Of a DNA stretch of 40,452 bases, positions 22,040 through 39,839 are shown piece after piece (positions within the stretch are counted from its first letter, which is position 1; every line of letters begins with the position of its first letter). The notes beneath the pieces were generated by a model, which was not told the DNA's origin, did no database searches, and saw only the letters and a program-made list of their open reading frames with translations. This stretch comes from Spirochaetaceae bacterium (GTDB taxonomy: Bacteria; Spirochaetota; Spirochaetia; DSM-27196; SLAA01), in assembly GCA_003556605.1 (NCBI GenBank), contig PWQX01000055.1, positions 1-40,452 on the forward strand, given 5' to 3'. Made by a program: the position numbers and the translations under genes.

Positions 22040-25000
22040 TCAATACACCGCCCCCCGCTCTGCGGCAGCGGTCATCCGCGCAGCGGCGGCCTCACCGGCC
22101 GGGACCGCGCTCTCGCTTTCGGGCGTAATTGCCTCGCCGGTGGGCTTCAGCACCACCGCGCGCCGGTCCTTACCGGCGATTTTCGCGATGACCGGTGTAG
22201 CGAACCGCAGGTGCCGGAGAAATCGATCCTGATGGTAAGCCGGTACCGCCCGCAGATAGTCGCGATCCAGCAGCCCGTCACCGATGAAGGGATTGATCGT
22301 GAGATAGGCAATGCGCAGCGACGTGATATTCTGGAAGAAGTGTGTGCCCTGGCTGGGGTCCACTCGGAAGTGCTCGAGCCCGCATTCCACGATGACCTTG
22401 GCGTTGGAGATCTGTGTCCAGGCCAGTGGGATACCGAGCCACGGATCGCTTGACCCTAAGCGGCCCGGTACCACTAGGATGTACCGCCGATTCTCCGCGC
22501 GCATACGGTCGTTGAGCCGGGTGAGCGAGTCGGCCATCCGGTTCGTGGCGGCCGCATCAAAGGCCTCGGGCTTGATGTACACGAAATCGTAGATCGTGTC
22601 GTACAGCCCGTTGCCGAGTGCTTTCTCGGAGGCGAGCAGGACGCGCTTGTTGTCCTCCTCTTCGATCTGTATGTCATCGGACTCCAGGCCTTCCACTATC
22701 GGGCGGACCTGCAGAAAGCTGAACACCCGCTGCGACTCCGGCGGCGGGTTGAGGTCTACGGCGAACTCAATCTCGACGGGAACGTTCATCTCGTTGGAGG
22801 CAAGCCGCAGGAGGTCTTGCAGAATCTCCATCAGCGGGAACATTTGGTACTTCAACACCCCTGCGAACGTGATTACGCGCCTTCCGGGCTGGTCGGTGCC
22901 GTCGTACAGGCGCTGGTGCTCGAAGTCGTAGCTGGAGGCGACCAGTGGAAGCGCAGGATCTTCTTCCGCTGCCGTGATGGGGTAACGCACAACGGTTCCG
23001 CCCTCGTCACGGTGCGGGTCGAAGTTGGTTTCGGTCATGTCGATCGCATAGAAGTCATTCTGCGTGTTTTTCAGCGCGGTATCGGTATCGGTCAGTTGAA
23101 TGACTTTCTTAGGGCGGCTCGGCGACACCCGCAACGAGCAGCCGCCCTCTACTACGGTCTTTCCCAGCCCGTGCGCGAGGCTCACGATACCGTCTTCGGT
23201 ATTCTCGGACTCTACCGGGTAGAAGTTCAGCGACCGCGCCACGCCGCTGATCGTGGGGTAACAGCGTGTCTGGTGCAGCGTTCCGGCCACCTCTTGTATG
23301 ATAACCGCCATCTTCTCTTCGTCGAGAACGTTCTGGGTCGCGACGAGATAATCGCGGCTGCGCTTATAGTACGTGGAGGCGAACACCGCCTTGATCGCGG
23401 CGACCAGCTCGTGGTGGCGCTTCTCAACCGTTTCGGCGTTGTTCGGCAGCATGTAGGTTATGTAGATTCCTGCGAAGGGCTGATAGTGCGAGTCCTCTAG
23501 CAGGCTCGAGGAGCGTACCGCGATGGGTTTGCGCATAACCTGCAGCACGGCGTACAGATCCTCGTGTAAACGCTCCGGCAAGCGCGCCTCGAGAAACAAA
23601 TGCAGAATCTGATCGTCGGTGAGCTCGTGGTCGGCAAGCACGCGCTCGAACAGGTTGTTCTTCTCCATGAAAGACTCGAACACGTCGGTAGTCAGTACTA
23701 CCGTCTTCGGGATCGAGATAATCACATCCGGGTAGCGATAGCGCATGCGCTGCTGTTTGAGTATGAAATCAGCAAACGCCAGCCCGCGGCCCTTACCGCC
23801 GAGCGAGCCGTCGCCGATACGTGAAAAGCTGTAGTACTCGTCGTAGTGGCTTTTGCGGAACTCCGCTATTGTTCCGCGGTTTTCGAAGATACGGTAGTTC
23901 TTGATTGTCTCGTACAGGTGGCGCTTGGCGTCCGCCACGCTCGGAAAATCACTGAGCTGGATATCGCTAATAACGTTCGCGAGCGGGAATAGAGCTCGCG
24001 CCTTCAGCCACTTGGAAAAATCGTTGATGCGTGCGTGGTGGGCGAAGCTGTCATCCGGAATAGAGCGAATCTTGTTCTGCAGCTCAGTCAGGCTCGAGAC
24101 CCTCTCGATCTCTTTGCGAGTCTGCGGGTCGCGGAACGCAAAGTCGCCGAACCCGTAGTTCTCGCGCACGTACGCGCGCAGCCGCGCGAGTAGCGATTTC
24201 GAGTGCTTATGTACGAACGCGGCGTTGTAGCGTTCGGCGTCGGCGCGGTGCGCCTCGTGCGAGGACTGCAGCAGAATCGGCATATCCCCCTGTTCGGCGC
24301 GCACGTACTCGCAGAGGCGCAGGCCGGCCTCAGGGTCGTCCACGCCGCCGCGCTTGTAGCTGATGTCCGAGATAATGCCCAGCAGGTGACCCTTGTAGCG
24401 TGTATAGAGCTCTACCGCCTCCTCATAGGTTTTAGCGAGGAGGATCTTCGGACGGCAGCGCATCCGCATTGTCTGCTGCCACTCGTTCAGCCCCTCGTCC
24501 ATGAGGTGGCGTGCCTGCTGAAACAGTACGCGGTAAATGTTCGGCAGGTAGCTTGAGTAATAGCGCACCGAGTCCTCCACGAGAATGATGGTCTGGACTC
24601 CGGCGATCCTCACGTCGTATTCAACGTTCATCCGGTCTTCCATGAGCTTGACGATCGCGAGCAGGATACTGTCGTTGCCGAGCCAAGAGAAGATGTGATA
24701 GTGACTGGAGAGGTCGTCGTTGCGCAGCCGCAGCGTCACTTCGCGAGAAAACGGAGTGAGTACCACCACCGGGAGCTCGGGATATGCGCTGTCGATCGCT
24801 TCGGCGAGGTCCAGAGTACGGACCTCGCCGATGTTCAGCATGGTGATCACCAAGTCAAAGCGTCGTTGCGAGAGCATCGCGAACGCTTCGTCGCCGCGCG
24901 AGACCTGCGTGAACTTCGGCGGGTAGCGGAGATTGAGCGCTACGTACTCCTGAAAGATCTGCTCGTCGACCCGGCCGTCCTCCTCCAGCATGAACTTGTC

Positions 25001-25114
25001 GTACTTGCTGCAGACAAGCAGTATTTCTTCGATGCGCCGCTGCATCAACTGCTTAACCGGCACTTCCTCAAAGTAATACGGTTCTTTCGGCCCGCGGCGA
25101 GTATTCGTGCTCAT
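22040..25114 (-). CDS. Receiver-receiver-PEP/pyruvate-binding hybrid protein
   Basis: A 1024-residue soluble protein. Residues about 30-160 resemble a degenerate receiver domain: the phosphoacceptor Asp is replaced (DLVITMLNIG). Residues 170-330 look like an intact receiver (IILVEDS acidic pair, GIISDISYKRGG Asp, and a Lys in FVHKHS). From about 430 to 810 there is a PPDK_N/PEP-synthase ATP-binding domain (GDGSLGGKGRGLAFADFIL, IAVRSSSLLEDSHYQPFAGIY, SLAHGLGKTVVEGG, ending FLQVRPIV). The phospho-His swivel domain and the PEP-utilising barrel of true PEP synthase are absent. The last 200 residues are of unknown fold. It could be a phosphorelay-controlled phosphotransferase. The promoter puts the transcript start at the ATG, and no ribosome site is visible. 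Confidence 0.8.
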   Translation of the reverse strand: MSTNTRRGPKEPYYFEEVPVKQLMQRRIEEILLVCSKYDKFMLEEDGRVDEQIFQEYVALNLRYPPKFTQVSRGDEAFAMLSQRRFDLVITMLNIGEVRTLDLAEAIDSAYPELPVVVLTPFSREVTLRLRNDDLSSHYHIFSWLGNDSILLAIVKLMEDRMNVEYDVRIAGVQTIILVEDSVRYYSSYLPNIYRVLFQQARHLMDEGLNEWQQTMRMRCRPKILLAKTYEEAVELYTRYKGHLLGIISDISYKRGGVDDPEAGLRLCEYVRAEQGDMPILLQSSHEAHRADAERYNAAFVHKHSKSLLARLRAYVRENYGFGDFAFRDPQTRKEIERVSSLTELQNKIRSIPDDSFAHHARINDFSKWLKARALFPLANVISDIQLSDFPSVADAKRHLYETIKNYRIFENRGTIAEFRKSHYDEYYSFSRIGDGSLGGKGRGLAFADFILKQQRMRYRYPDVIISIPKTVVLTTDVFESFMEKNNLFERVLADHELTDDQILHLFLEARLPERLHEDLYAVLQVMRKPIAVRSSSLLEDSHYQPFAGIYITYMLPNNAETVEKRHHELVAAIKAVFASTYYKRSRDYLVATQNVLDEEKMAVIIQEVAGTLHQTRCYPTISGVARSLNFYPVESENTEDGIVSLAHGLGKTVVEGGCSLRVSPSRPKKVIQLTDTDTALKNTQNDFYAIDMTETNFDPHRDEGGTVVRYPITAAEEDPALPLVASSYDFEHQRLYDGTDQPGRRVITFAGVLKYQMFPLMEILQDLLRLASNEMNVPVEIEFAVDLNPPPESQRVFSFLQVRPIVEGLESDDIQIEEEDNKRVLLASEKALGNGLYDTIYDFVYIKPEAFDAAATNRMADSLTRLNDRMRAENRRYILVVPGRLGSSDPWLGIPLAWTQISNAKVIVECGLEHFRVDPSQGTHFFQNITSLRIAYLTINPFIGDGLLDRDYLRAVPAYHQDRFLRHLRFATPVIAKIAGKDRRAVVLKPTGEAITPESESAVPAGEAAAARMTAAAERGAVY

Positions 25115-25315: not shown

Positions 25316-26653
25316 ATGTACAAGCTTGACCAGTTCATGAACGACCTACAACAACGGCACCCGGCTCAGCCGGAGTTCATTCAGGCGGTGCACGAGGTAG
25401 CTGAATCGATCATTGACGTTGTCAACCGCAATCCGCGCTATCTGTACGCGCGAATTCTCGACCGCATCACTGAGCCCGACCGCGTGTTCATCTTCAAGGT
25501 GGAGTGGGAGAACGACGATGGGCAGGTGGAGGTGAACCGCGCCTACCGCGTGCAGTTCAACAACGCGCTCGGCCCGTACAAGGGAGGTATTCGCTTCCAC
25601 CCGAGCGTGACGCTCGGGGGTCTGAAGTTCCTGGCGTTTGAGCAGACCTTCAAGAACAGCCTTACCCAGCTGCCGATGGGCGGAGGCAAGGGCGGCGCCG
25701 ATTTCAACCCCAAGGGTAAGAGCGAGAACGAGATTCAGCGTTTCTGCCGCTCGTTCATGACCGAGCTGCAGAAGTACATTGGACCGCACACCGACGTGCC
25801 GGCCGGCGATATCGGCGTGGGTGCGCGTGAGATCGGTTTTATGTACGGGCAGTACAAGCGCCTGCATGACGAGAACACCGGTGTGCTGACGGGAAAGGGA
25901 CGTAACTGGGGTGGGTCGCTGGCGCGCCCGGAGGCTACCGGCTACGGCGCGGTGTACTTCGCCGACGAGATGCTGAAAGCCGCCGGTGACGGGCTCGAGG
26001 GTAAGACCGTGGGCCTGTCAGGCTTTGGCAACGTCTGCTGGGGTGCGGCGATGAAGGCCACGCAGCTCGGTGCAAAGGTGGTAACCATCTCGGGTCCGGA
26101 CGGATACGTCTACGACAAAGAGGGGGTCAACACCGAGGAGAAGTTCCGCTACATGCTGGAGCTACGTGCCTCGAACAACGATGTAGTTGAGCCATATGCG
26201 GAGAAGTTCGGGGCGGAGTTTTTCGCCGGTAAGCGGCCTTGGGAGGTTCCCGTCGATATTGCGATTCCGTCGGCTATTCAAAACGAGCTCGATGAGAACG
26301 ATGCCGTGCGGCTCATAAAAAACGAAACGCGTTACGTAATAGAGGCCTCAAACATGGGATGCACGCCGGAGGCCATAAGCGCGCTCCGTGAAGCCGGGGT
26401 GCTCTTTGCGCCGGGCAAAGCCGCTAACGCCGGTGGTGTGGCGGTCTCGGGGCTCGAGATGACGCAGAACGCGATGATGCTGTCGTGGACCTTCGAAGAA
26501 GTAGAGACGCGGTTGCACGATATCATGCGGCGGATCCACGCGAGCTGCCTCAACGACGGCAGACAGACCGACGGGTTCGTAAACTACGTCCGCGGCGCAA
26601 ACATCGCCGGCTTCAAGAAGGTCGCCGATGCGATGATAGAGCAAGGGTACTAA
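25316..26653 (+). CDS. gdhA: Glutamate dehydrogenase, probably NADP-specific
   Basis: A 445-residue hexameric-type enzyme that interconverts glutamate with 2-oxoglutarate and ammonia. Signatures are PYKGGIRFHPSVTLGGLKFLAFEQTFKNSL with the catalytic Lys near 110, LPMGGGKGGADFNPKG near 120, the Asp/His region TDVPAGDIGVGAREIG near 162, and a GFGNVCWGAA nucleotide-binding loop near 238. Length and sequence match the small bacterial NADP type, but cofactor is inferred. AAGGAG at 25301-25306 precedes the ATG. The leader carries two palindromes shared with iclR. That suggests GDH is controlled with ectoine degradation, where it would recycle the glutamate produced by the transaminase. Confidence 0.95.
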   Translation: MYKLDQFMNDLQQRHPAQPEFIQAVHEVAESIIDVVNRNPRYLYARILDRITEPDRVFIFKVEWENDDGQVEVNRAYRVQFNNALGPYKGGIRFHPSVTLGGLKFLAFEQTFKNSLTQLPMGGGKGGADFNPKGKSENEIQRFCRSFMTELQKYIGPHTDVPAGDIGVGAREIGFMYGQYKRLHDENTGVLTGKGRNWGGSLARPEATGYGAVYFADEMLKAAGDGLEGKTVGLSGFGNVCWGAAMKATQLGAKVVTISGPDGYVYDKEGVNTEEKFRYMLELRASNNDVVEPYAEKFGAEFFAGKRPWEVPVDIAIPSAIQNELDENDAVRLIKNETRYVIEASNMGCTPEAISALREAGVLFAPGKAANAGGVAVSGLEMTQNAMMLSWTFEEVETRLHDIMRRIHASCLNDGRQTDGFVNYVRGANIAGFKKVADAMIEQGY

Positions 26654-26663
26654 GCGGCGCGGC

Positions 26664-27974
26664 TCAGCACACCTCGTGGATCGCGGCGAAGATCTCGGAA
26701 TAGAGCTCCTCGATGTGCTGCAGGTCGACACCGGCGAATGCCACGCGCAGGTAGCGGTCCTCGATCGAGATCGTGCCGATGCCGCGCTCGTGCAGGATCT
26801 TGCGGCGGAGGTTCTCGGCGCCGCCGGATTCAAGCTCGAATGTCATGAAGTAGCCGGAGTTAAACGGCAGTACGCGCACGCCCCTCGGCAGCGCGTGCTG
26901 CTCCAGCACTCGGCGTACCGCCCGGTAGCGCTCGCGCAGCAACTCAAAGGCGGCCTGCTTTTCATCCGGGTACGTCGGTGTCTCGAGCGCCTTCAGCAGC
27001 AGGCTCTGCGCCGGGCGGCTTGAGTTGGAAACCGCAGCGCGCACAGCGCCCCCGAGCTTCTTCTCCAGCGCTTGGTATTTGCCGGCATCCGCCCCGGCGC
27101 AGCCGAAAGTTACGAAGCCCAGCCGAAAACCCCACACAAAATCCTCTTTGGTAGCGCCGTCCACCTTTATCGCGAGCAGGTTTGGGTGCGCGTCGGCAAG
27201 CTCGGCGAACAGCGACTGCCGATAGGTGTCCTGCTCGTAAAACAGCCCGAAGTACGCGTCGTCGCAGATCACTAACAGCCGCACGCCCTCGGAAGCGATT
27301 GCGGTCAGACGGCGGCAGATTTCCGCGGCCTCGCTGACCGTGGGTGAATACCCGGTGGGGTTGTTCGGGAAGTTCAACACAATCGCAGCCTTGGAGTTAC
27401 CTTCCGGGGTACGGCCGTCCGCCGCCGACTCGCGTACCGCCTGCTCCATCGCGTCGAGGTTGAAGGCGTCGCTATAGTAAAACGAAAAGCGCTTGACGGT
27501 TGACTGTTTGCGTCCCTCAAAGATGAGGCGGTAGTTTCCCCAGAACATATCCGGAATGACCACCTCATCGCCGGTGTCGAAAAACAAGTCCGCGAGGATG
27601 GAAATGCCGGCCGTCAACCCCGGGACGACCAGCGGCTGGCTTATGGCTTTGCCGGCGAGTGTCGGGGTTTTTCGTAGCATCTCATCGCGCCAGCGCTCGC
27701 GCAAGCGTGGATCGCCCGGCGTTGGAGCGTATGAAAACAGCTCGCCGGGGCTGAGCCCGGAAAAATGCGAAGCAATCTCCTCAAGGTGTAGCGGTTGGCC
27801 GTCCTTTACCGCCAGGCCGACGGTGGCGTCGAATCGATGCGCATGCTGTTTTGCTTCCGCGGCCTGTGTGATGATCCCTTTCGGGAAATAGAAGCGGCGC
27901 CCGTACGGCGACAGCAATTCAAACATCGCGCTGCCTGCTAAGGTCTCGTTCAGTTCTTTTGCCAACGGATTCAT
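26664..27974 (-). CDS. Class I/II PLP aminotransferase
   Basis: A 436-residue fold-type I aminotransferase. The PLP lysine is in GATKEDFVWGFRLGF near residue 275, with the expected Gly and Arg six and eight residues later. Other markers are NFPNNPTGYSPT near 192, CDDAYFGLFY near 235, and a substrate-binding Arg segment near the end (RYLRVAFAG). It resembles aspartate/tyrosine-type enzymes, but the specific amino acid is unknown. The ATG at 27974 is chosen because GGAGGG precedes it. It starts one base after the stop of the upstream ectoine hydrolase on the same strand, so the two are translationally coupled. A role in moving amino groups during ectoine use is likely. Confidence 0.85.
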   Translation of the reverse strand: MNPLAKELNETLAGSAMFELLSPYGRRFYFPKGIITQAAEAKQHAHRFDATVGLAVKDGQPLHLEEIASHFSGLSPGELFSYAPTPGDPRLRERWRDEMLRKTPTLAGKAISQPLVVPGLTAGISILADLFFDTGDEVVIPDMFWGNYRLIFEGRKQSTVKRFSFYYSDAFNLDAMEQAVRESAADGRTPEGNSKAAIVLNFPNNPTGYSPTVSEAAEICRRLTAIASEGVRLLVICDDAYFGLFYEQDTYRQSLFAELADAHPNLLAIKVDGATKEDFVWGFRLGFVTFGCAGADAGKYQALEKKLGGAVRAAVSNSSRPAQSLLLKALETPTYPDEKQAAFELLRERYRAVRRVLEQHALPRGVRVLPFNSGYFMTFELESGGAENLRRKILHERGIGTISIEDRYLRVAFAGVDLQHIEELYSEIFAAIHEVC

Positions 27975-27975
27975 A

Positions 27976-29166
27976 CTACCCTCCTTCTTGGGTAAATAGT
28001 TGCTCGGGAAACTCGACAAACTTTTCACAGCCGGACTCGGTCACCAGCACGGGCTCACTGCACTCGAAACCGTATCGCTCGAGCCAGATGCCCGGCATGA
28101 AGTGCAGCGTCATGCCCGGCTCCAGCACGGTGGTGTCGCGGGGGCGTAAGCTGATGGTGCGCTCGCCCCAGTCGGGGACGTAACTCAAGCCAAACGAGTA
28201 TCCAACGCGAGAGGGCTTGTGCACGCCGGTTCCGCGAAGACTCTCACGCCAGGTGGCTTCCACCGCTTCGGCGGTGACGCCGGGTCGGATGAACTCCAGT
28301 GTGCGCCGCAGCCCGTTTACTACCGTATCGGCGGTCTTTCGAAGGTCCGCCGGCGGCTCACCAAGGTAAACGGTGCGTGACAACGGAACGTGATAGCGAC
28401 GGCGTACGCCGCAGAGCTCCAGCAGTACAACGTCGTTGGGTTGATAGCGGCGCTCGGGGTCAAAGGTCAGATGGGCGGAGGAGGTACGCTCGGCGCTCGG
28501 CATTATCGGAAATATCGCCGGCGATTCGCCACCAAACTCCCCGGTTCCGCTGATCTGCGCCGCCGCCACCGCGGCGCAGGCATCCTTCTCGGCGACACCG
28601 ATAGCGACCGTGTCGATCGCGGTCTGCATCACGCGTTCGCAGATGCGTGCCGCCTGGCGCATGCAGGCAATTTCAATCGGGCTCTTGACTGTTTTGACCC
28701 AGTTCACCAGCCCGGTGGCGTCGAGGATGCGCGTGTTCGGCAACTCGCGTTGCAGCTCTTGCAGCATACGCGCAGAGAAATAAAGGTTGTCCATCTCCAC
28801 ACCGAGCGGCCGCTCGGAAACGCCAAGCTCCGCGAGCAAAGCGGCGACGAAGGTCATGGTGTGCTCTTGGGTAGAGTGCACGTAGGTATCGGGGTATCCG
28901 TATACGCACTCGTTCGGCATGAACACCGTCAGGCGCGCACCGTTGGCATCCTGCTCGCGCCCGAACCACACCGGGTTATCCTCGTCGCGAATTACGAGCA
29001 CGCCTTGGTGTACGTAGAACGACCAGCCGTCGTATCCGCTGAGGTAATTCATGTTGGCCGGATCCACGGTCAGCAGTACCTCGATCTCGGCCGCATCCAT
29101 GCGCGCTTTCACGCGCTGTAGCCGGCGGCGATACTCTTCATCTTCGAACACTGCGGTACTCTTCAT
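27976..29166 (-). CDS. doeA: Ectoine hydrolase, copy 1 (DoeA/EutD)
   Basis: A 396-residue M24-fold enzyme that opens the ring of ectoine to N-acetyl-diaminobutyrate. It strongly resembles the known DoeA/EutD proteins in SGYDGWSFYVHQGV near residue 45, EMDNLYFSARMLQELQRELPN near 120, VNWVKTVKSPIEI near 150, RRYHVPLSRTVYLG near 255, GYSFGLSYVPDWGERTISLRP near 320, and PGMTLHFMPGIWLE near 350. Creatinase-fold enzymes of this type lack the peptidase metal-binding set. It is read leftwards from its own promoter, divergent from the GNAT-kinase gene, and coupled to the aminotransferase. A second copy lies at the window end. Confidence 0.92.
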   Translation of the reverse strand: MKSTAVFEDEEYRRRLQRVKARMDAAEIEVLLTVDPANMNYLSGYDGWSFYVHQGVLVIRDEDNPVWFGREQDANGARLTVFMPNECVYGYPDTYVHSTQEHTMTFVAALLAELGVSERPLGVEMDNLYFSARMLQELQRELPNTRILDATGLVNWVKTVKSPIEIACMRQAARICERVMQTAIDTVAIGVAEKDACAAVAAAQISGTGEFGGESPAIFPIMPSAERTSSAHLTFDPERRYQPNDVVLLELCGVRRRYHVPLSRTVYLGEPPADLRKTADTVVNGLRRTLEFIRPGVTAEAVEATWRESLRGTGVHKPSRVGYSFGLSYVPDWGERTISLRPRDTTVLEPGMTLHFMPGIWLERYGFECSEPVLVTESGCEKFVEFPEQLFTQEGG

Positions 29167-29187
29167 CCTCGTGCTCCAGCCTGCTAT

Positions 29188-29203
29188 TGTCCATTGTTAG
29201 ACC
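29188..29203 (-). promoter_or_regulatory. Possible divergent operator at doeA copy 1
   Basis: On the minus strand GGTCTAACAATGGACA is an imperfect GTC...GAC repeat starting at about +1 of the predicted promoter, the same place as the first gdhA/iclR site. It matches GTTCAAATAATAGAAC at 10 of 16 positions, which is suggestive only. Confidence 0.3.
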
Positions 29204-29207
29204 AAAA

Positions 29208-29237
29208 AGTATAAGGGGGCATCCTCGTGTTTGGCAA
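29208..29237 (-). promoter_or_regulatory. Promoter of doeA copy 1 and aminotransferase
   Basis: On the minus strand TTGCCA (29232-29237) and TATACT (29208-29213) are separated by 18 bases. Transcription would start near 29201, about 35 bases from the ATG. Confidence 0.65.
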
Positions 29238-29244
29238 TTACTAG

Positions 29245-29250
29245 TACAAT
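29245..29250 (+). promoter_or_regulatory. -10 element of the GNAT-kinase gene
   Basis: TACAAT (5 of 6 consensus) ends six bases before the ATG, predicting a start at or next to the codon. No good -35 is visible. The ATG lacks a ribosome site, which fits a leaderless mRNA. Confidence 0.4.
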
Positions 29251-29256
29251 ATCGGA

Positions 29257-31233
29257 ATGAGTGAACGTAGTACTACAATCACGGCGATTCAGCCACTGAG
29301 TCCGGACCTCGAACAGCGAGTTGAGCGCAACCCGCTGTTGCATATTGATACCTTCGTGATTCCTTCCCCGTACGTGAAGGACAGCGCGATCGAAAAGGAT
29401 TACGAGCACAGCTACGCATGGATCGAGGAAGGTGAGATCTTGGGCTTCGTGCTGGTGTACTCTGATAAGGCCAAACAGAACTTCCACATCTACAAGCTGG
29501 TTACCAGCCCTTTCGGCCGCGGCCGCGGCATCGGCACGCTGATCATCGAGCATCTGGCGCACAGCATTCCCGCCAAGGCGCGGTTGTACCTGTACGTCTG
29601 GGAAAAGCAGACCGACACCCTTGAGTTCTTCCAGCGCAAAGGCTTTAGTGTCGGCAAGACTACGGTGTACCGGAACGTGGTCTACTATCATCTGTTCGCG
29701 CGCCGCGACGAGATCAGGAGCGGCTCCGGCTTACAAGTACCCACGGGCGCGCTGTTCGGTGAAGAGATCGGCCGTACGCGCCACGATGCGAAAAAGACGA
29801 TTCGGTTGTTAGCGCACATGGTTGACATGCTGTCGATCGACAACTGCGGCAAGATCATCGAGGATATCAACCGCGAAACCACGACACTGGTTAACGTCCT
29901 GAACGCGTTTCGAGATACCGTCAGCAGCGTCCACGCAGTGAACGTCAAAGACCTGATCCTGGAGCGTATCATCCCCTACATTGAAGCCTCCTCTATTCCG
30001 AGCACGGTCAAGCTGACCCTTGATACCGACTCAACCAATGTGCTCGGCTATTATGTGAACTTCGGCCGCGCGCTGGTGAACATCGTCGCGAATGCGCTCG
30101 AGGCGATTGCTGAGGCCGAGCGCAAAGGCGTGATCGAGATCGAGCTTCGCGAAGAAGGACCGCAGGTAGTGCTGCGGATTGGCGACAACGGTATCGGGAT
30201 GGAACCCGCGCTGCTCGAGCCGGATGCCGAAGGCTACCCGGCGTTCGTTGGCGCCACCACTAAGACGCGCCGAAAGGGTGAAGGGCTCGGGACGGTGCAG
30301 ATCTACGCTACCTTCGGCGTAGAGAACATCACCGTGGAAAGCGCTGCAGGCGTCGGAAGCACCTGGACGATTCGGCTGCAGAAGGCCGGGGAAGGGGTTG
30401 ATCGCTGGTTCCTCCAGCTTGAGCAGCGCTTTCATGAGCTCAAGACGATTGCGGGCAGCGCGCGGCTCACCGCAGACTCAAGCCGCACCGCGGTAATCGC
30501 CCATATCTGGCAGCTTCGCAAGCTGCAGCTCTACTTGTTCGACGTAATCCTGCACTTCGGCAAGTACCATAATGTGCGGACGATCTTTCGGTCGGTTCTC
30601 GCGTTCTTGATGAGAAGGCTCGAACCGGCTGCGCTGCAGGCCCACGTCGAGGGGCTGCGCTCGGATTACCCGCAGCTCAAGAACAGGCTGCTGGAGACGG
30701 CGGCTGAAATCAAATTGCGCTTTGAACAGCTGCGCAGCGCGGTGGATCTGTCGCAGTACCGCGGTGCGCTGTTCAAGAGTTACGGTCAGGCGCTTGAGAA
30801 CGTCATCATCTTCACCCTCGATCCCGACAGCGGGCGATTCTTTGCGACCGATCGCAAGCTCGCCGAGCACCTTGATTTTGTCACGTATTTGAGAAGAGAT
30901 CGTGACCGGCTGCTGCGCGGTGAGTTCATCGGCGATGTAAACGAACGCTCGCAGCCGATACTGCTAGGTATCTGGAGTGTTGAATCCGACGAAGACCTGT
31001 GGAAGAAGCTCAAGTTGCTGCGGCAAGGCGCTCGAAAGCTCATCGAGATCGGGGTGTACGGAGATAAGAGCCTCGCGTTCTACCAGACCACCCATGTGCG
31101 GCACACGCGCGACATCAACAGCGATATCTCGATGACGTTCGCGCAGTTCGCTGCGGTCGAAGACGATGAGCTGTGGCAGTACACCACCGATGCGTCGGAC
31201 GAGCTGCAGGGCTTTGTCGCCGCAGTGGATTAG
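29257..31233 (+). CDS. GNAT acetyltransferase-histidine kinase fusion
   Basis: A 658-residue cytosolic protein. Residues about 40-150 form a GNAT domain (GFVLVYSD, acetyl-CoA loop GRGRGIGTLIIEHL, then FFQRKGFSVGKTTVY). A helical region follows with a candidate phospho-acceptor box, RHDAKKTIRLLAHMV, near 170. Residues 250-375 are a GHKL ATPase domain: N box NIVANALEAIAEA, DNGIGM, and KGEGLGTVQIYATFG. The last 280 residues are helical and unrecognised. There are no membrane segments or obvious partner response regulator next door. It may sense or modify a metabolite. It is divergent from doeA copy 1 and lies upstream of aspartate kinase. It may be leaderless. Confidence 0.78.
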   Translation: MSERSTTITAIQPLSPDLEQRVERNPLLHIDTFVIPSPYVKDSAIEKDYEHSYAWIEEGEILGFVLVYSDKAKQNFHIYKLVTSPFGRGRGIGTLIIEHLAHSIPAKARLYLYVWEKQTDTLEFFQRKGFSVGKTTVYRNVVYYHLFARRDEIRSGSGLQVPTGALFGEEIGRTRHDAKKTIRLLAHMVDMLSIDNCGKIIEDINRETTTLVNVLNAFRDTVSSVHAVNVKDLILERIIPYIEASSIPSTVKLTLDTDSTNVLGYYVNFGRALVNIVANALEAIAEAERKGVIEIELREEGPQVVLRIGDNGIGMEPALLEPDAEGYPAFVGATTKTRRKGEGLGTVQIYATFGVENITVESAAGVGSTWTIRLQKAGEGVDRWFLQLEQRFHELKTIAGSARLTADSSRTAVIAHIWQLRKLQLYLFDVILHFGKYHNVRTIFRSVLAFLMRRLEPAALQAHVEGLRSDYPQLKNRLLETAAEIKLRFEQLRSAVDLSQYRGALFKSYGQALENVIIFTLDPDSGRFFATDRKLAEHLDFVTYLRRDRDRLLRGEFIGDVNERSQPILLGIWSVESDEDLWKKLKLLRQGARKLIEIGVYGDKSLAFYQTTHVRHTRDINSDISMTFAQFAAVEDDELWQYTTDASDELQGFVAAVD

Positions 31234-31247
31234 GGACGCGGTATTTC

Positions 31248-31276
31248 TTGACCAATTGGAAATCTCGGTTTATCGT
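31248..31276 (+). promoter_or_regulatory. Promoter of the aspartate kinase unit
   Basis: TTGACC (31248-31253) and TATCGT (31271-31276) are 17 bases apart, giving a leader of about 205 bases. The leader has a CAGCCT/AGGCTG stem (31296-31301 with 31314-31319) and an AGCTC/GAGCT stem (31386-31390 with 31394-31398). It matches no riboswitch class I know. Confidence 0.55.
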
Positions 31277-31490
31277 GGCAAGCGCTCTCTGCTCGCAGCC
31301 TCTTAAGAGAAACAGGCTGGTCCGAAGCTTGTGGTGAGCGTGGCGTTAACCGCATGGTGTTGCGGGAGTTGGCCGGCGCACCCCCAGCTCGCGGAGCTTA
31401 CAGGCGGGCCAAGGCGCCAAAGCTCGCACCGGCGGCTATTTGCGTGAGTCGGGCACCACAGAATTCGGTCCAATCTTTAAGGAGAACCTT

Positions 31491-32801
31491 ATGAACACAG
31501 TCGTTGCCAAGTTCGGCGGAAGCTCGGTTGCCGATGCCGCCCAGATCCGCAAGGCCGCCGAGATCCTGCGCTCCGACTCACGGCGCAAGGTTGCGGTGTT
31601 CTCCGCGCCCGGTAAACGCAGCAAGACCGACGAGAAGATCACCGATATGCTGCTAGGCTGCCACGCCAAGGCTGCGGCCGGCGAGGATATCACTCCCGTT
31701 TTCGAGTTAGTTCGCACGCGCTATCTCGAGATCGCGCGCGAGCTGGGAGTTGCCGCGGACGTGGCGGCAGTTCTCGACGAGGTTGAACAGACGATTCGCA
31801 GCGGCGGCAGCAAGGATTACGTTGTGTCGCGCGGGGAGTACCTCGCTGCCCAGCTCATCGCCGTCTATCTCGAGGCCGAGTTCGTCGATGCTGCCGAGCT
31901 CGTGGCGTTCCGCGATGCTACTACGGTGGACACCGAGCGCACCTACCGGCAGGTCGCCGCTCGGGTCTCCGAGACGGGGCGGTTGCAGATTGTGCCGGGG
32001 TTCTACGGTGCTTACCGTGATGGACAGATTCAGCTGTTCTCGCGCGGCGGTTCGGATATCACCGGGGCGCTGGTCGCCCGGGGTATCGGCGCGGACCTGT
32101 ACGAGAACTGGACGGATGTTTCGGGCCTGTTGATGACCGACCCACGCATAGTCGACGATCCCGGGCCAATCAGCGAAATCAGTTACCGTGAGTTGCGTGA
32201 GCTTGCCTACCTCGGGGCAGCGGTGTTTCACGAAGAGGCCATTTACCCCTGTTCGGAAACCGGTATTCCCATCGTAATTCGCAACACCAATCAGCCCGAG
32301 CACCCGGGAACCAAGATCGTTACCGCCGTGAGTATCGACCGGGGTGATATTACCGGGATCGCCGGGCGCGAGCATTACCGACTCGCGCGGATCGAGAAGG
32401 TGCTATTGAACAAGGATCGCTCGTTTCTCGCGCGGCTCGATCGGATCCTAGAGCGCTACGGCGTGGGGGTGTTTCAGTCCGCCTCCGGCAGCGACTCTAT
32501 GGCGTTCGTGACCTCGGCCGCCGAGCTGGACGCGGTAGCCGATCATGTTGCCGGTGATATTCGCAGAGAGCTCGCCCCCGATTCGGTTGACCTCGGAACC
32601 CAAGTGGCTGTGGTAGGCATTGTCGGCGGCGCGATTGCCGAAAGCGTTGGGCTGGGCGCGCGGATTTTCGGTGCGCTTGGCGATGCGGGTATTAACGTGT
32701 TGTTTATGGTGCAGGGCTATTCACCGTACAGCGCACTCTTTGTCGTGCCGCAAGCGCAGTACGCTCGGGCGGTACAGGCCATCCACGGCATTGCCTGTTA
32801 G
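31491..32801 (+). CDS. lysC: Aspartate kinase
   Basis: A 436-residue kinase that phosphorylates aspartate at the start of the aspartate family pathway. KFGGSSVADA opens the protein, SRGEYLAAQLIA occurs near 120, and SRGGSDITGALVA near 185 forms the active site. The C-terminal 130 residues are two ACT domains (ASGSDSMAFV and GDAGINVLFMVQGYS), the usual feedback sites for lysine or threonine. The ATG at 31491 has AAGGAG nearby. The upstream frame to 31440 is not used. It stands at the head of a unit with an EutC-like gene, MarC and the ectoine genes, so it may be dedicated to ectoine metabolism. The promoter and long leader suggest its own control. Confidence 0.92.
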   Translation: MNTVVAKFGGSSVADAAQIRKAAEILRSDSRRKVAVFSAPGKRSKTDEKITDMLLGCHAKAAAGEDITPVFELVRTRYLEIARELGVAADVAAVLDEVEQTIRSGGSKDYVVSRGEYLAAQLIAVYLEAEFVDAAELVAFRDATTVDTERTYRQVAARVSETGRLQIVPGFYGAYRDGQIQLFSRGGSDITGALVARGIGADLYENWTDVSGLLMTDPRIVDDPGPISEISYRELRELAYLGAAVFHEEAIYPCSETGIPIVIRNTNQPEHPGTKIVTAVSIDRGDITGIAGREHYRLARIEKVLLNKDRSFLARLDRILERYGVGVFQSASGSDSMAFVTSAAELDAVADHVAGDIRRELAPDSVDLGTQVAVVGIVGGAIAESVGLGARIFGALGDAGINVLFMVQGYSPYSALFVVPQAQYARAVQAIHGIAC

Positions 32802-32867
32802 CAGTGCTGCGTGCCGGCGCTTATCTGCGCCCGCGGCCCGCGTCGGTTACACAAGGGAGGATTGCGC

Positions 32868-33854
32868 ATGCATATTTCAACCGAACGAGCATTGAAAGAC
32901 TGTGTAGTGCTCGACAGCGGCGTAGTGAAGCAGGTGGAAAACGCATTCGCCGAGCTCGAGCACGGCAACGCTACCGTACCGCCGATTTTGATGGTCCCGG
33001 TACCGGAGCAGCACGGCGAGGTTGATGTAAAGACGGCCTACATTCCGGGGCTTGATTTCTTTGCGATCAAGGTTGCCTCGGGGTTTTTCAACAACCAAGA
33101 ACTCGGTCTGCCGAGCGCGAGCGGTTTGGTGCTGCTGATGAGCACCAAGACCGGATTCCCCGTAGCGGTCTTACTGGACAACGGGTACCTCACGCAGGTG
33201 CGCACCGGAGCTGCCGGGGCGGTTGCCGCTCGCTACCTTGCACCAAGGACTACCGCGACCGTCGGCATTGTGGGGTCGGGCACCCAAGCACGGTTTCAGC
33301 TGCGCGCGCTGAGCCTGGTGCGCAATCTCGAACAGGTGCTCGTCTACAGCCCGATAGACGAGGCCGGCGTACCTGCCTATATCGAAGAGATGAAGTCCGA
33401 GCTTGGTGTGAGCGTTGCACGCGTGGATGATCCGCAAGAGCTGCTGCAGCGCAGTAGCGTGGTGGTCAGTACCACGCCTTCGCGCGAGCCGATCATCCGA
33501 GCCGAGTGGTTGCACCCCGGCTTGCATATCACCGCGATGGGATCGGACACCGAAGAAAAGCAGGAGCTGGAAGCGCAGTGCTTCGCCAGGGCGGACGTGT
33601 GCGTGAGTGATCTGAAAACGCAGGGGTTCCGGCTCGGTGAGTTGCGCGCGGCCAAGGCGGCGGGCGTGCTCAACGAAAACTCAGCGGTGGTGCAGCTCGG
33701 GGAGCTGGTGTTGGGAAAACACCCGGGCCGCAGCTCCGAAAAGCAGATCACCGTGTGTGATCTCACCGGTGTCGGCGTTCAAGACACCGCGATCGCGCTC
33801 GAGGCCTACCGCCGCGTACTCGAGCGTGGAACGATAACCGAGATCGCGGAATAA
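32868..33854 (+). CDS. eutC: Ornithine cyclodeaminase family protein, EutC-like
   Basis: A 328-residue NAD-binding protein of the ornithine cyclodeaminase/mu-crystallin family. FFAIKVASGFFNN carries the substrate-binding Lys near residue 60, followed by TGAAGAVAARYLAPR, and the nucleotide loop VGIVGSGTQARFQLRAL is near 130. EutC genes occur in ectoine utilisation clusters, where the exact reaction is debated. The context here (ectoine hydrolases, DoeD-like transaminase) makes the EutC assignment reasonable, but EutB, the usual partner, is not in this window. ATG 32868 has AGGGAGG upstream. The MarC gene begins six bases after its stop. Confidence 0.8.
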   Translation: MHISTERALKDCVVLDSGVVKQVENAFAELEHGNATVPPILMVPVPEQHGEVDVKTAYIPGLDFFAIKVASGFFNNQELGLPSASGLVLLMSTKTGFPVAVLLDNGYLTQVRTGAAGAVAARYLAPRTTATVGIVGSGTQARFQLRALSLVRNLEQVLVYSPIDEAGVPAYIEEMKSELGVSVARVDDPQELLQRSSVVVSTTPSREPIIRAEWLHPGLHITAMGSDTEEKQELEAQCFARADVCVSDLKTQGFRLGELRAAKAAGVLNENSAVVQLGELVLGKHPGRSSEKQITVCDLTGVGVQDTAIALEAYRRVLERGTITEIAE

Positions 33855-33860
33855 CCACAG

Positions 33861-34475
33861 ATGGCGCCCCCCGAGATCTTCGCGGTCTTCATCACCATCC
33901 TGATTCTCGTTGATCCTTTCGGGCTGGTGCCGATGTATCTGTCGCTCACCGGCCACTTGTCGCGCGAACGGAAGCGGCGAACGATCATCAAGGCGGTGAC
34001 AACCGCGCTCACCGCTTTGACGCTGTTCATACTGATTGGCCGCGAGACCCTGATTCTGCTCGGGATTATGCCCGGCTCGTTCTATATTGCCGGCGGCGTC
34101 ATATTTTTCATTATCTCGCTCGATATGATACTCGGTCACCGGCAGCGCACCAAGAGCTCGCCGCACGAGCCCGAGGTCGACGACGTCGCGGTTTTTCCTC
34201 TCGGCATCCCGATTCTCGCCGGCCCCGGCACGATCACCACGATTATCCTCTACATCAGCGAGGCCGACAACCAGTTTGTGATGGGGTGGGTACTGTTCGC
34301 CTCGGTGGTGATCGCCCTCGCGATCGCGGTGGTTACGATGTTCACCGGCGAGCTGATTCTGCGGGTGCTGCGGCGCACCGGTGTTCAGGTGATACAGCGC
34401 CTGATGGGCATGATCTTGTGTGGTTTGGCCGTGCAGTTCATCTACGAGGGATTGCAGAAGCTCGAGATTATCTAA
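33861..34475 (+). CDS. MarC-family inner membrane protein
   Basis: A 204-residue polytopic membrane protein of the MarC/UPF0056 family, with about six hydrophobic segments. Family markers are LILVDPFGLVPMYLSLT near residue 12 and FPLGIPILAGPGTITTIILY near 110. Members have no firmly established function. Earlier links to multiple antibiotic resistance did not hold. Its place six bases after the EutC-like gene and before iclR raises the possibility of solute or metabolite efflux in this pathway, which is speculation. Confidence 0.85.
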   Translation: MAPPEIFAVFITILILVDPFGLVPMYLSLTGHLSRERKRRTIIKAVTTALTALTLFILIGRETLILLGIMPGSFYIAGGVIFFIISLDMILGHRQRTKSSPHEPEVDDVAVFPLGIPILAGPGTITTIILYISEADNQFVMGWVLFASVVIALAIAVVTMFTGELILRVLRRTGVQVIQRLMGMILCGLAVQFIYEGLQKLEII

Positions 34476-34534
34476 ACCGCCTTGGGCTGTGACTGCGCAG
34501 GCGCTTTCGGCGATCTCCCGTGGCGCGAAATTTC

Positions 34535-34563
34535 TTGACAGAACCGTAGACCGCGGGCACAAT
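34535..34563 (+). promoter_or_regulatory. Promoter of the iclR-doeD operon
   Basis: TTGACA (34535-34540) and CACAAT (34558-34563) are 17 bases apart. The predicted start at 34569-34571 coincides with the ATG, giving a leaderless transcript. Geometry matches the gdhA promoter. Confidence 0.6.
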
Positions 34564-34568
34564 ATCAT

Positions 34569-35378
34569 ATGTTTCACGATGAGAACGCTAGTTCAAATAA
34601 TAGAACAAATTCGTATACCCTGGCTGCGACGGTGAAGAAAGCGTTTACGATTCTGGAGCTCATCGCGGAACAGCAGCCGGTGCGCGCGGCGACAATCGCC
34701 CGCAGTCTCAACCTTACCCGCGGAAACGTGCATCGCCTATTGGCCACGCTTGAGGCTTTAGGGTACATCGAGCGGTCATCGGGCACCGAGTACCGGCTTA
34801 CATTCAAGATGTTCACGCTTGGCAACAGCATTCCCGGGACACGCAGACTGAGCGAGCTAGCGTACCCGTTCATGCAGCAGCTTTCGCACGCGTGTCAGGA
34901 AAACGTGTATCTCGTACAGCGCTATGACTACAACGCTATCTGCGTCGATGAGGTCGACAGCCTTAACCCGCTTACGCTGCATCGCGACGTGTCGCGTACC
35001 TACCCCTTGTACTGCAGCGCATCCGGCAAGGTGTACCTCGCGTGGATGCCCGAAGCGGAGTTCGAGCGCTATCTTACTCAGGTTCCGTTACTGCCGCGCG
35101 CACAGCGCACTATCGCAGACCCCGATGAGCTGCGTCGCGAGCGCCTTCGAGTGCTGGAGCAGGGTTACGCCCTCGAGTTGCGAGAGTTCAGCGACGATTT
35201 GAACAGCGTCGCCGCCCCGATCCGTGATCACACGAAGGCGGTAGTCGCGACCGTGAGCATCTCGGGCCCGGCGATTCGGCTAACCGACGCGCGTGCTCGA
35301 GAGCTGATCCCAGAGACGATGCGAACGGCGCAAGAAATATCGAAAACAATGGGTTTCGCCGGCTCAGAAAAACCTTAA
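34569..35378 (+). CDS. IclR-family transcriptional regulator
   Basis: A 269-residue regulator with an N-terminal winged helix (VKKAFTILELIAEQQPVRAATIARSLNLTRGNVHRLLATLEALGYI, residues 22-67) and a C-terminal IclR ligand-binding domain (VYLVQRYD near 113, YCSASGKVYLAWM near 150, VAAPIRDH near 215). It is first in the operon with the transaminase, Asd, racemase, M20 and second doeA genes, so it probably senses an ectoine breakdown product. The start at 34569 lacks a ribosome site, and the predicted transcript start lies on the ATG. GTG at 34632 is an alternative that would still keep the whole helix-turn-helix. Confidence 0.88.
   Translation: MFHDENASSNNRTNSYTLAATVKKAFTILELIAEQQPVRAATIARSLNLTRGNVHRLLATLEALGYIERSSGTEYRLTFKMFTLGNSIPGTRRLSELAYPFMQQLSHACQENVYLVQRYDYNAICVDEVDSLNPLTLHRDVSRTYPLYCSASGKVYLAWMPEAEFERYLTQVPLLPRAQRTIADPDELRRERLRVLEQGYALELREFSDDLNSVAAPIRDHTKAVVATVSISGPAIRLTDARARELIPETMRTAQEISKTMGFAGSEKP
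34571..34606 (+). promoter_or_regulatory. Tandem palindromic operator, iclR copy
   Basis: GTTTCACGATGAGAAC (34571-34586) and GTTCAAATAATAGAAC (34591-34606) lie 20 bases apart, as at gdhA. The second site is a near-perfect palindrome and shares 15 of 16 bases with the second gdhA site. Both lie inside the first codons of iclR, so binding would block initiation or elongation. Confidence 0.65.
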
Positions 35379-35396
35379 CAAGGGAGACGACAGTAT

Positions 35397-36776
35397 ATGA
35401 TCGACGAGAAAACGCTTGCCGAGTTGTCCTTTGCGGTTGCACCTGATATCAAGGTCACACCGCCCGGACCGAAGTCTCAAGAAATCCTGAACTACCAAGA
35501 TCAGAACGAGGGTTCGGCGGTGTCATACGCGCGCGGAATGCCGATGGCGCTCAAGCGCGGCCGCGGCGCTACGATCGAGGACGTTGATGACAACGTCTAT
35601 ATCGATATGTTCGGCGGCGCCGGCGTGATGGCGGTGGGGCACGGGCATCCCGATGTGCTCGAGGCGGCGCGCAAAGAGATTGAGAACGTCACGCACGCGC
35701 TGGACATCCCCACGCAGTCACGCGCTAATCTCGTGAAGCTGTTGAAAGAGTTGTTGCCGCAGGAGCTGACCCGTTTGTTCTTCGGCGGACCTACCGGTTC
35801 GGATGCCGTGGAGACGGCGCTGAAGCTGGCCAAATGGAACACCGGTCGCTACGGCGTGGTCGCTTTTGAGGGTGGATACCACGGTATGACCGGTGCGGCG
35901 CTCGCCCTGACTACCGACAGCAGCCACCGTGACGGTTTGGGCCCCCTGGTGCCGGGTATTCAGTTTGTACCGTACGACTATCGTTACCGCCATCCGTTCG
36001 GCTGCAGCGACGAGGAGTCGGATCTGTACGCAGCCGATTATCTTGAGCGCGTGTTGTCGGACTCGCATTCGGGAATCTCAAAGCCGGCAGCGGTCATAAT
36101 CGAGCCGGTGCAGGGTGAAGGCGGCTCGATCGCGCCCACGCCGCGCTTTCTGCAGCGCATCCGCGAGATTACCGAGCGTCACGGTGTGCTGTTGATCTGC
36201 GACGAAATTCAAAGCGGCCTCGGAAGAACCGGCAAGATGTTCGCCTTCGAGCACGCTGGTATCGTACCGGACATCGTGACGCTGAGCAAGGCGCTCGGCG
36301 GGGTCGGCTTCCCGATCTCGGCGATTGCGTACAAAGAGGAGCTCAACACCTGGCCCCCGGGTAAGACAATCGGTACCTTTCGCGGCAACATGATCGCGTT
36401 TGCTGCCGGCCATGCCGCGCTGCAGTTCATGCGCGCTAACCAAATCCCCGAGCGCGCCGCGAAGCTCGGTGAGAAGGTGCTCGGAGAGCTCAAGAAGCTT
36501 GAAGCTGAAAGCAGCATCGTCGGCGAGGCGCGCGGAATCGGCCTCATGATGGGTCTCGAGATCGTGCGCGACAAGAAGACCAAACAGCCGGCCGGTGATC
36601 TTGCCAAGAAGGTCCGTACGTACCTGCATCAGCGCGGCGTCATGATCGAGGTCGGCGGGCATCACGGCAACGTCGCGCGATTGCTGCCGCCGCTGGTAAT
36701 CACCGAGGAGCTGGCGATGAAAGCGGTTGAGATTATCCGTGGCGTGATCAACGATATCGAGATGGAGGTCGGCTGA
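35397..36776 (+). CDS. doeD: Class III aminotransferase, DoeD/EctB-like diaminobutyrate transaminase
   Basis: A 459-residue class III PLP transaminase. Motifs are GGAGVMAVGHGHPDVLEA near residue 65, FFGGPTGSDAVETALKLAKW near 126, AFEGGYHGMTG near 157, VIIEPVQGEGGSIAPTP near 230, the CDEIQSGLGRTG Asp near 266, and the PLP lysine in LSKALGGVG near 296. In this context it most likely converts diaminobutyrate and 2-oxoglutarate to aspartate semialdehyde and glutamate. The reverse, EctB-type reaction of ectoine synthesis cannot be ruled out by sequence, but no ectA or ectC is present. AAGGGAG precedes the ATG. Its stop overlaps the asd start by one base. Confidence 0.85.
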   Translation: MIDEKTLAELSFAVAPDIKVTPPGPKSQEILNYQDQNEGSAVSYARGMPMALKRGRGATIEDVDDNVYIDMFGGAGVMAVGHGHPDVLEAARKEIENVTHALDIPTQSRANLVKLLKELLPQELTRLFFGGPTGSDAVETALKLAKWNTGRYGVVAFEGGYHGMTGAALALTTDSSHRDGLGPLVPGIQFVPYDYRYRHPFGCSDEESDLYAADYLERVLSDSHSGISKPAAVIIEPVQGEGGSIAPTPRFLQRIREITERHGVLLICDEIQSGLGRTGKMFAFEHAGIVPDIVTLSKALGGVGFPISAIAYKEELNTWPPGKTIGTFRGNMIAFAAGHAALQFMRANQIPERAAKLGEKVLGELKKLEAESSIVGEARGIGLMMGLEIVRDKKTKQPAGDLAKKVRTYLHQRGVMIEVGGHHGNVARLLPPLVITEELAMKAVEIIRGVINDIEMEVG

Positions 36777-37807
36777 TGTTCGGCAAGAAGTACACCGTTG
36801 GCGTAGTCGGCGCCCTGGGGATGGTCGGCAGCGAGATGCGCCGCACGCTTGAGCGGCGGAAGTTTCCGATTAAGGAGTTGCGCCCGCTCGATGTGCCGGA
36901 GGCGGAAGGACAGACGGTGGAGTTTCGCGGCAAGAACTACACCGTGCTTGCCGCGCAAGAGGAGAGCTTCAAAGGCGTCGATATCGCGCTGTTCTCCGCC
37001 GGCGCCGAGGCGAGCCTGGAGTTGGCGCCGCTTGCAGTGCGGCAGGGTGCGGTGGTTGTCGACAACTCATCGGTGTGGCGTATGGATCCGGAGAAACCGC
37101 TGGTGGTTCCGGAAGTAAACGCCGCAGATCTCAAGCGGCACAAGGGGATCGTCGCTAACCCGAACTGCTCGACGATTCAGATGGTAGTGGCGCTGAAGCC
37201 GCTACACGATGCGGCGCGCATCAAGCGCGTGGTGGTTTCCACCTATCAGGCCACTTCCGGCGCCGGCAAGAAGGGCAGCGATGCGTTGACCGAGGAATCA
37301 AAGGCGTATCTGGAGACCGGTATGGTGCAGCAGTCCAAAGGCTTTCAGCACCAGATCGCCTTCAACTGTATTCCGCACATCGACGTATTCCAAGAGTACG
37401 ACTACACCAAAGAGGAATACAAGATGGTCAACGAGACGCAGAAGATTATGAACGACGAGAGTATCAAGGTAACCGCAACGTGCGTGCGCGTACCGGTGTG
37501 GTACGGACATGCGGAATCTATCAATATCGAGACCGAGAAGAAGCTCACCGCTTCCGAGGCGAAGAAGCTGCTCGCCGCCGCTGAGAATGTGGTGGTGATC
37601 GACGATCCGCAGAAGAACGAGTATCCGATGCCGTTGTTCAGTAATGACCGTGATGAGACCATGGTCGGGCGCATCCGCGAAGACCTGACGATTGCCAACG
37701 GGCTGAACCTCTGGGTGGTGTCCAACAACATCCGCAAAGGAGCGGCTTTGAACGCGGTGCAGGTGGCCGAAGCGCTGGTCAAGATGAAGCTGGTGCGCGT
37801 GCCGTAG
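36776..37807 (+). CDS. asd: Aspartate-semialdehyde dehydrogenase (phosphorylating)
   Basis: A 343-residue NADP-dependent enzyme that interconverts aspartyl phosphate and aspartate semialdehyde. Signatures are GVVGALGMVGSEM near residue 8, FSAGAEAS near 75, the catalytic Cys in NPNCSTIQM near 128, and the acid-base His in CVRVPVWYGHAES near 240. This is the biosynthetic Asd fold, not the DoeC aldehyde dehydrogenase usually found in ectoine degradation. Its one-base overlap (TGATG) with the DoeD-like gene means the two are translated together and that semialdehyde is handed over. Direction of use cannot be determined from sequence. Confidence 0.94.
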   Translation: MFGKKYTVGVVGALGMVGSEMRRTLERRKFPIKELRPLDVPEAEGQTVEFRGKNYTVLAAQEESFKGVDIALFSAGAEASLELAPLAVRQGAVVVDNSSVWRMDPEKPLVVPEVNAADLKRHKGIVANPNCSTIQMVVALKPLHDAARIKRVVVSTYQATSGAGKKGSDALTEESKAYLETGMVQQSKGFQHQIAFNCIPHIDVFQEYDYTKEEYKMVNETQKIMNDESIKVTATCVRVPVWYGHAESINIETEKKLTASEAKKLLAAAENVVVIDDPQKNEYPMPLFSNDRDETMVGRIREDLTIANGLNLWVVSNNIRKGAALNAVQVAEALVKMKLVRVP

Positions 37808-37848
37808 CGCGCGCGCGCGTAACCGGGCGTGCTTATGCGAGGCGCACA

Positions 37849-38580
37849 ATGATCTTTCACGCAAGAGCCGGACAGACCAGTTACGGCGAAGCGATCGGAA
37901 TTCTGTTGCTCGACACCTTCACACCGTTTATCGAGGGCGACGTCGGCAACGCCGGCACCTACTCGTTTCCCGTGCGGTACCGTACCATACCGGGGTTGAC
38001 GGTTAAGCGCATTTTCAGCAAGGACCTGAGCTTCCGGGAGGAGATGCTTGCCGCCGGCCGAGCACTGGTGGGCCAGGGCGTAAGGGCGATAACCGGTGAC
38101 TGCGGTTTCATGGCGATCTATCAACGGTATTTGGCCGATCACCTGGAGGTTCCGGTATTTCTCTCGAGTTTACTGCAACTGCCGTTCATAGCTTCAGTAC
38201 TCTCATCCGAGTGCCGAGTCGGCATTCTAACGGCCAACGAAGCCGTCTTGGATTCGGAGCTTCTCAGTGCGCTCGGCATAGCTGCCTCGGAGCGTTACGT
38301 GATTGCAGGACTGCAGGACTATCCTCGGTTCTGCAGCGCGATCATCGATGAAGAAGGGCAGCTCGACAGCGAAGCGGTTGAGGCTGAAATGGTGGTGGCG
38401 GCACAGCGGCTGGTGCAACGCGAGCCGCAGATCGGCGCGCTGGTGCTGGAATGCAGCGTGATGCCCCCGTACGCGGCAGCGGTAGCCGCGGCAACCGGCC
38501 TACCGGTGTTTGATTACGTAACGATGATTGAGTACGTGCACTCGGCGGTGGTGAAACGCCGATATGCGCGCAGAATGTAG
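37849..38580 (+). CDS. Asp/Glu/hydantoin racemase family protein, EutA-like
   Basis: A 243-residue racemase-fold protein with two candidate catalytic cysteines, in TGDCGFMAIYQ near residue 86 and LECSVMPPYA near 205, the paired-Cys arrangement of cofactor-free amino-acid racemases. EutA proteins in ectoine clusters belong to this family, but their reaction is not settled. Racemising diaminobutyrate or a derivative would be a guess. It lies 41 bases after asd and nine before the M20 gene, in the same operon. Confidence 0.75.
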   Translation: MIFHARAGQTSYGEAIGILLLDTFTPFIEGDVGNAGTYSFPVRYRTIPGLTVKRIFSKDLSFREEMLAAGRALVGQGVRAITGDCGFMAIYQRYLADHLEVPVFLSSLLQLPFIASVLSSECRVGILTANEAVLDSELLSALGIAASERYVIAGLQDYPRFCSAIIDEEGQLDSEAVEAEMVVAAQRLVQREPQIGALVLECSVMPPYAAAVAAATGLPVFDYVTMIEYVHSAVVKRRYARRM

Positions 38581-38589
38581 GAGAGTGAG

Positions 38590-39810: not shown

Positions 39811-39839
39811 AGAATACCAAGGAGTAACAGGAGAGCAGA

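Follow-up and report, generated by a model that had tools for sequence, protein, structure and literature searches.

The gene examined here joins a GNAT acetyltransferase fold to a histidine-kinase ATPase and lies next to doeA, an arrangement which raises the question of what such a fused protein does, and whether its function is tied to ectoine. The stretch of DNA analysed (the window, 40,452 nucleotides) represents contig C6 in the 3.9-Mb genome of a Spirochaetaceae bacterium, in an assembly with a contamination of 4.4%. The sequence-only reading had proposed a kinase that senses acetyl status beside a pathway that releases acetate.

Architecture of the GNAT-kinase

The open reading frame starts with ATG, contains no internal stops, and encodes 658 amino acids (Table 1). 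In a Pfam search, the window protein matched only Acetyltransf_1 (residues 45-130, E 7e-11) and HATPase_c (residues 271-376, E 7e-11), both over the gathering cut-offs. No transmembrane segment was found in the 658-residue protein, the highest hydropathy mean over 19 residues being 1.16, and the GNAT-kinase is predicted to be soluble and cytosolic. The window protein and 24 relatives align over their full length, with identities to the window protein of 35-80%, and the full architecture is kept in ten Spirochaetota families. Because the identical fusion is present in all of these families, a chimaeric artefact is ruled out. In comparisons with the window gene, dN/dS was 0.05-0.16 in all four regions, and it was low in every comparison for the GNAT and DHp regions. 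The open reading frame is intact and under purifying selection, and a chance reading frame is excluded. The architecture first described from the letters alone, namely a GNAT domain, a His box, an intact GHKL ATPase and an unrecognised C-terminus, is borne out by Pfam, the alignment and the structure model.

Table 1. Positions of the GNAT-kinase gene and its parts in the window.
Feature	Residues	Position	Strand	Basis
Whole gene: GNAT, DHp-like hairpin, GHKL ATPase, undescribed C-terminal domain		29257..31233	+	ORF, Pfam, model
GNAT domain	1-150	29257..29706	+	Acetyltransf_1, alignment, solved GNAT relatives, e.g., PaiA (1tiq)
Acyl-CoA pyrophosphate loop R88-G-R-G91-I-G93	88-93	29518..29535	+	25-member alignment
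DHp-like helical hairpin	164-222	29746..29922	+	Predicted secondary structure, region identities
Candidate phospho-acceptor in R-H-D-A-K/R-K	H176	29782..29784	+	Alignment
GHKL ATPase (CA) domain	226-376	29932..30384	+	HATPase_c, profile and fold matches
N box	N275, N279	30079..30093	+	Each 25/25
G1 box D310-N-G-x-G314	310-314	30184..30198	+	D310, G312, G314 invariant
G2 box G341-x-G-x-G345	341-345	30277..30291	+	G341, G343, G345 invariant
Undescribed C-terminal domain (279 residues)	380-658	30394..31230	+	Structure model; no known match
C-terminal signature SYGQA...FT..P...DRKLAEHxDF...LRGE..GD	508-560	30778..30936	+	Alignment

The N-terminal domain has both the Q/R-x-x-G-x-G/A acyl-CoA loop and the GNAT fold, the model showing the beta-alpha pattern. 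In support of the earlier reading, the acetyl-CoA loop of this domain is present and nearly invariant, with R88 and G91 found in 25/25 members and G93 in 24/25, position 93 being G or A. By profile, PaiA (1tiq) is among the closest GNATs of solved structure. The fold and the CoA loop are common to PaiA/RimI-like GNATs and the GNAT-kinase, and the WEK(N/Q)...F..xGF motif is present in PaiA as well. Apart from the fused kinase core, the GNAT-kinase differs from PaiA in the canonical catalytic pair of beta-4 Glu and general-acid Tyr, which, as judged from the alignment to PaiA, is not kept in the family. At the general-acid position, which precedes the GF of motif B by four residues, 22/25 members have Phe and 3/25 have Tyr; where PaiA has its beta-4 Glu, the family has the invariant Y79. 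The canonical Glu and Tyr are typical of many active GNATs but are not needed for the fold, and certain GNAT enzymes are active without one or the other. A strongly conserved block, NPLLxIDTFxIPSPY, occupies residues 25-39, a region which in the GNAT fold usually forms the acceptor side. The CoA loop together with this block is what would be expected if the domain still bound a specific second ligand in addition to a CoA compound. Since two canonical residues are lost, what is known of GNAT catalysis (PMC8556138) favours a sensor role over acetyl transfer, and the domain probably has little or no acetyl transfer activity of its own.

A profile search gave KinB (3d36) as the best match, over residues 201-382 (E 3e-14); the ATPase part aligns to ZraS (9jfj), and a fold search retrieved HK853, ZraS and KinB at E 1e-9 to 1e-11. 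The N, G1 and G2 boxes, which the GNAT-kinase has in common with these three cores, are all invariant in the family, in agreement with the earlier description of the ATPase as intact. Directly before the ATPase, the model places a DHp-like hairpin of two helices (residues 164-190 and 197-222), although with a pLDDT of only about 50-63, and this hairpin carries the candidate phospho-acceptor His. The box RHDAKKT, picked out earlier, is real: R175, H176, D177, A178, K180 and R183 are identical in 25/25 members, and residues 161-220, with a mean pairwise identity of 68%, are the best-conserved stretch of the protein. The HisKA box is usually HE-x-x-N/T, that is, with Asn or Thr at H+4, whereas the box of the GNAT-kinase is HDAKK, with Lys at H+4. 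The Pfam HisKA profile was not matched by the window protein, and 1 of the 25 members reached E 0.1. We infer that the protein is a histidine kinase. Unlike KinB, ZraS and HK853, it would have a GNAT domain, not a PAS domain or a transmembrane sensor, as its input; besides the deviating His box, it also differs from them in the unrecognised domain that follows the ATPase.

This C-terminal domain comprises a helical part (residues 383-511) followed by an alpha/beta part (residues 516-645), and when modelled alone it reached a mean pLDDT of 91.6 and a pTM of 0.88. Residues 380-658 matched no Pfam family, giving scattered weak matches only, and no PDB sequence; a Foldseek search of the model against PDB and viral proteins returned nothing significant. 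The best plausible fold match, Stay-Green (7y5y), was rejected as not meaningful (E 0.04, TM 0.2-0.3). Neither a receiver nor an HPt fold was recognised by sequence, Pfam or Foldseek. The C-terminal signature contains 12 invariant residues, Y509, Q511, T520, D532, R533, K534, E537, H538, D540, R554, E556 and D560, and the charged ones among them suggest an active site or a site for a ligand. In the 393 genomes sampled across the phylum and the 46 of the window's order, a profile of the domain matched only GNAT-kinase genes and one broken fragment. The stretch of about 280 residues that had drawn attention as unrecognised is thus conserved, outside known families and confidently modelled, and set against PDB and viral structures its fold is provisionally a new one.

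Distribution and genomic context

Relatives of the GNAT-kinase were found in 5/5 genomes of the window's genus, 19/46 of its order and 11/393 sampled across Spirochaetota; a few of the matches behind these counts are fragments at contig ends, and the counts cover Spirochaetota genomes and are not to be read as a restriction to that phylum. In a contig scan that reached close relatives only, two spirochaetes gave matches. No copy with the full architecture was found in viruses or plasmids, the plasmid matches spanning the kinase region only. In the gene tree, members mostly cluster by taxonomic family, a pattern consistent with largely vertical inheritance accompanied by loss, and the GNAT-kinase appears from its sequences to be an old family.

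There is one copy per genome, with the exception of the window's own assembly, which also holds a broken, shortened copy (L028, 6800-8500, on contig C167). This copy is nearer to the version of G412 (family f5), with up to 85% identity, than to the window gene; it was either gained by horizontal transfer and has since decayed, or is part of a contaminating contig.

In the window and three genus-mates, doeA is divergent from the GNAT-kinase gene, and an ectoine-type aspartokinase gene and eutC lie downstream. We found these neighbours in the window's genus only. In carriers outside the genus, the flanks examined never adjoined ectoine genes; the neighbours there include sulfatase, HAD hydrolase, hexokinase and ABC ATPase genes and vary by lineage. 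No conserved operon partner was detected and no neighbour family recurs widely in the flanks examined. Nor is a response regulator gene conserved among the linked genes; a few receivers lie 2-6 kb away in some loci. In three related genomes (G399, G400 and G402), the GNAT-kinase is encoded on other contigs and is missing from the stretches of the ectoine locus that were examined; in G399 and G400, the ectoine locus is otherwise almost identical in gene content to that of the window.

The co-occurrence of the two genes points the same way. DoeA, the ectoine hydrolase, is missing from most carriers outside the genus: 10/10 of those tested gave no match, although the same query detected it in 11 genomes of the order. 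Six genomes of one family (f61) have the GNAT-kinase and no DoeA match, and two DoeA-positive genomes (G401 and G403) gave no GNAT-kinase match. Within the order, carriers make up 9/11 DoeA-positive and 10/35 other genomes (Fisher p 0.004), and with the window's genus counted once the association has p 0.08. The co-occurrence is an association, not linkage. These data indicate that the place beside doeA is peculiar to the window's genus and that the family probably has no ectoine-specific role; a secondary recruitment may have occurred within that genus alone.

Some further observations concern the ectoine loci themselves. A gene at 22040-25114 on the minus strand encodes a 1024-residue protein with a partial receiver-like match (residues 67-124) and a PPDK_N ATP-binding domain (residues 437-819). 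It was considered as a partner of the kinase and rejected, as its gene tracks doeA rather than the kinase gene. Among the genomes of the order, only one DoeA-positive genome is without it, hardly any of the others have it, and it is encoded on one contig with doeA in several genomes from two families. The protein seems to be a component of ectoine loci in spirochaetes, with a signalling or enzyme role, that is so far undescribed. G399 (L093), G400 (L092/L097) and G402 (L090) encode two DoeA paralogues, one sharing about 66-71% and the other about 49-50% identity with the DoeA of the window. In G399 and G400, the ectoine regions further contain gdhA, asd, a gene for a DAT/EctB-like aminotransferase and two IclR regulator genes. 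The window region 25316-40452 likewise encodes an aspartate-semialdehyde dehydrogenase, a DAT/EctB-like aminotransferase and a glutamate dehydrogenase, as well as an amidohydrolase near DoeB2, and therefore mixes degradation with aspartate-family steps. For the aspartokinase, the TTG start given in the list (31440-31491) is probably placed too early; agreement with a genus relative begins at the ATG at 31491 (MNTVVAKFGG).

Proposed function and alternatives

We prefer, tentatively and at somewhat less than an even chance, the hypothesis that the protein is a cytosolic orphan sensor histidine kinase with the GNAT fold as its input domain. The protein would form a dimer through the hairpin and autophosphorylate on H176; the GNAT domain would bind an acyl-CoA and a second ligand held by the block at residues 25-39, and its ligand state would be relayed to the adjoining DHp helix. 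The phosphate would pass from H176 to a response regulator encoded elsewhere and unlinked, and the C-terminal domain would serve as output module or as an additional sensor. We favour this hypothesis because a single full-length architecture is kept in 25 sequences from ten families, because all kinase boxes are invariant and the best profile and fold matches are KinB, ZraS and HK853, because the CoA loop is kept while the canonical Tyr and Glu are replaced and dN/dS stays low in the GNAT and DHp regions, and because the C-terminal domain is exclusive to this architecture in the sampled genomes and the neighbours vary among lineages. Points against it are the Lys at H+4 and the missing HisKA match of the window protein, as well as the lack of a response regulator among the conserved neighbours. 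Furthermore, the conserved acceptor-side block suits an enzyme as well as a sensor, and as some GNATs work without the canonical Glu or Tyr, the loss of activity is only presumed.

The same observations can be read in the opposite direction, with the kinase core and C-terminal domain as the sensing part and the GNAT domain acetylating a protein or metabolite as output. The very strong conservation of the CoA loop and acceptor-side block, the low dN/dS of the GNAT region, the lack of a response regulator partner nearby and the existence of GNATs with N-terminal regulatory domains (PMC8556138) would all suit such an enzyme. However, we consider it unlikely, as the general-acid Tyr has mostly become Phe and the beta-4 Glu a Tyr, and as the GNAT domain is N-terminal here, whereas type III GNATs have their regulatory part N-terminal to the GNAT. 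An N-terminal position is the usual one for the input domain of a kinase. The atypical His box and the missing HisKA match could also mean that the protein is no longer a histidine kinase but a GHKL ATPase joined to a GNAT domain, e.g., an ATP-driven conformational switch or scaffold; this seems improbable to us, with H176 and D177 invariant in a two-helix hairpin just before a CA domain whose closest matches are true kinases.

A self-contained phosphotransfer, in which the C-terminal domain as effector receives or uses the phosphate of H176 and a separate response regulator is dispensed with, would be in keeping with the receiver-like position of that domain, as in hybrid kinases, with its never being found apart from the kinase in the sampled genomes, and with its many invariant charged residues, including D532, H538, D540 and D560. 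We nevertheless give it little credence, as neither a receiver nor an HPt fold was recognised and no phosphate-accepting residue is indicated. The least probable of these explanations, and in our view a very improbable one, is the regulation of ectoine breakdown suggested by the sequence-only reading. The divergent doeA and the downstream aspartokinase and eutC genes of the genus, as well as the enrichment of carriers among DoeA-positive genomes, speak for it; both the neighbourhood and the co-occurrence data go against linkage, and the ectoine hypothesis is therefore unsupported for the family. Adjacency is confined to the genus, the ectoine loci of a related family lack the kinase, two DoeA-positive genomes gave no match to it, many carriers are without DoeA, and the genomic context of the homologues outside the genus revealed no link to ectoine loci.

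Relation to regulated GNATs and significance

GNATs joined to a domain likely to be allosteric are known as type III GNATs, which include MsPat/MtPat with a cAMP domain and the ACT-GNATs, their regulatory domain being N-terminal (PMC8556138). The GNAT-kinase resembles them in such a pairing, but its partner is a complete histidine-kinase core placed C-terminal to the GNAT domain. In the available part of that GNAT review (PMC8556138), a kinase-type GNAT is unmentioned and the term "histidine kinase" occurs 0 times, and we found no published description of a GNAT-kinase fusion in the open-access literature. Both folds are known on their own; as judged from the sequences, what is new is their fusion, relative to the open-access literature, and the undescribed C-terminal domain. 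A wider reading is that these proteins form a class of bacterial sensor kinases in which a former GNAT enzyme now works as a sensor dependent on acyl-CoA, so that the state of central metabolites would bear directly on phosphotransfer, and in which a new C-terminal fold supplies a second sensory or output function; this is less likely than not.

The ectoine neighbourhood proved to be incidental, and a wrong functional label has therefore been avoided. The C-terminal domain, well defined and confidently modelled, with no relatives found in this analysis, is a clear structure target. As a rule, acetylation and phosphorylation are regarded as distinct layers; the GNAT-kinase, a single conserved polypeptide, combines the folds of an acetyltransferase and a kinase. 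If the preferred hypothesis is true, a kinase that reads acyl-CoA would couple gene regulation directly to central metabolism.
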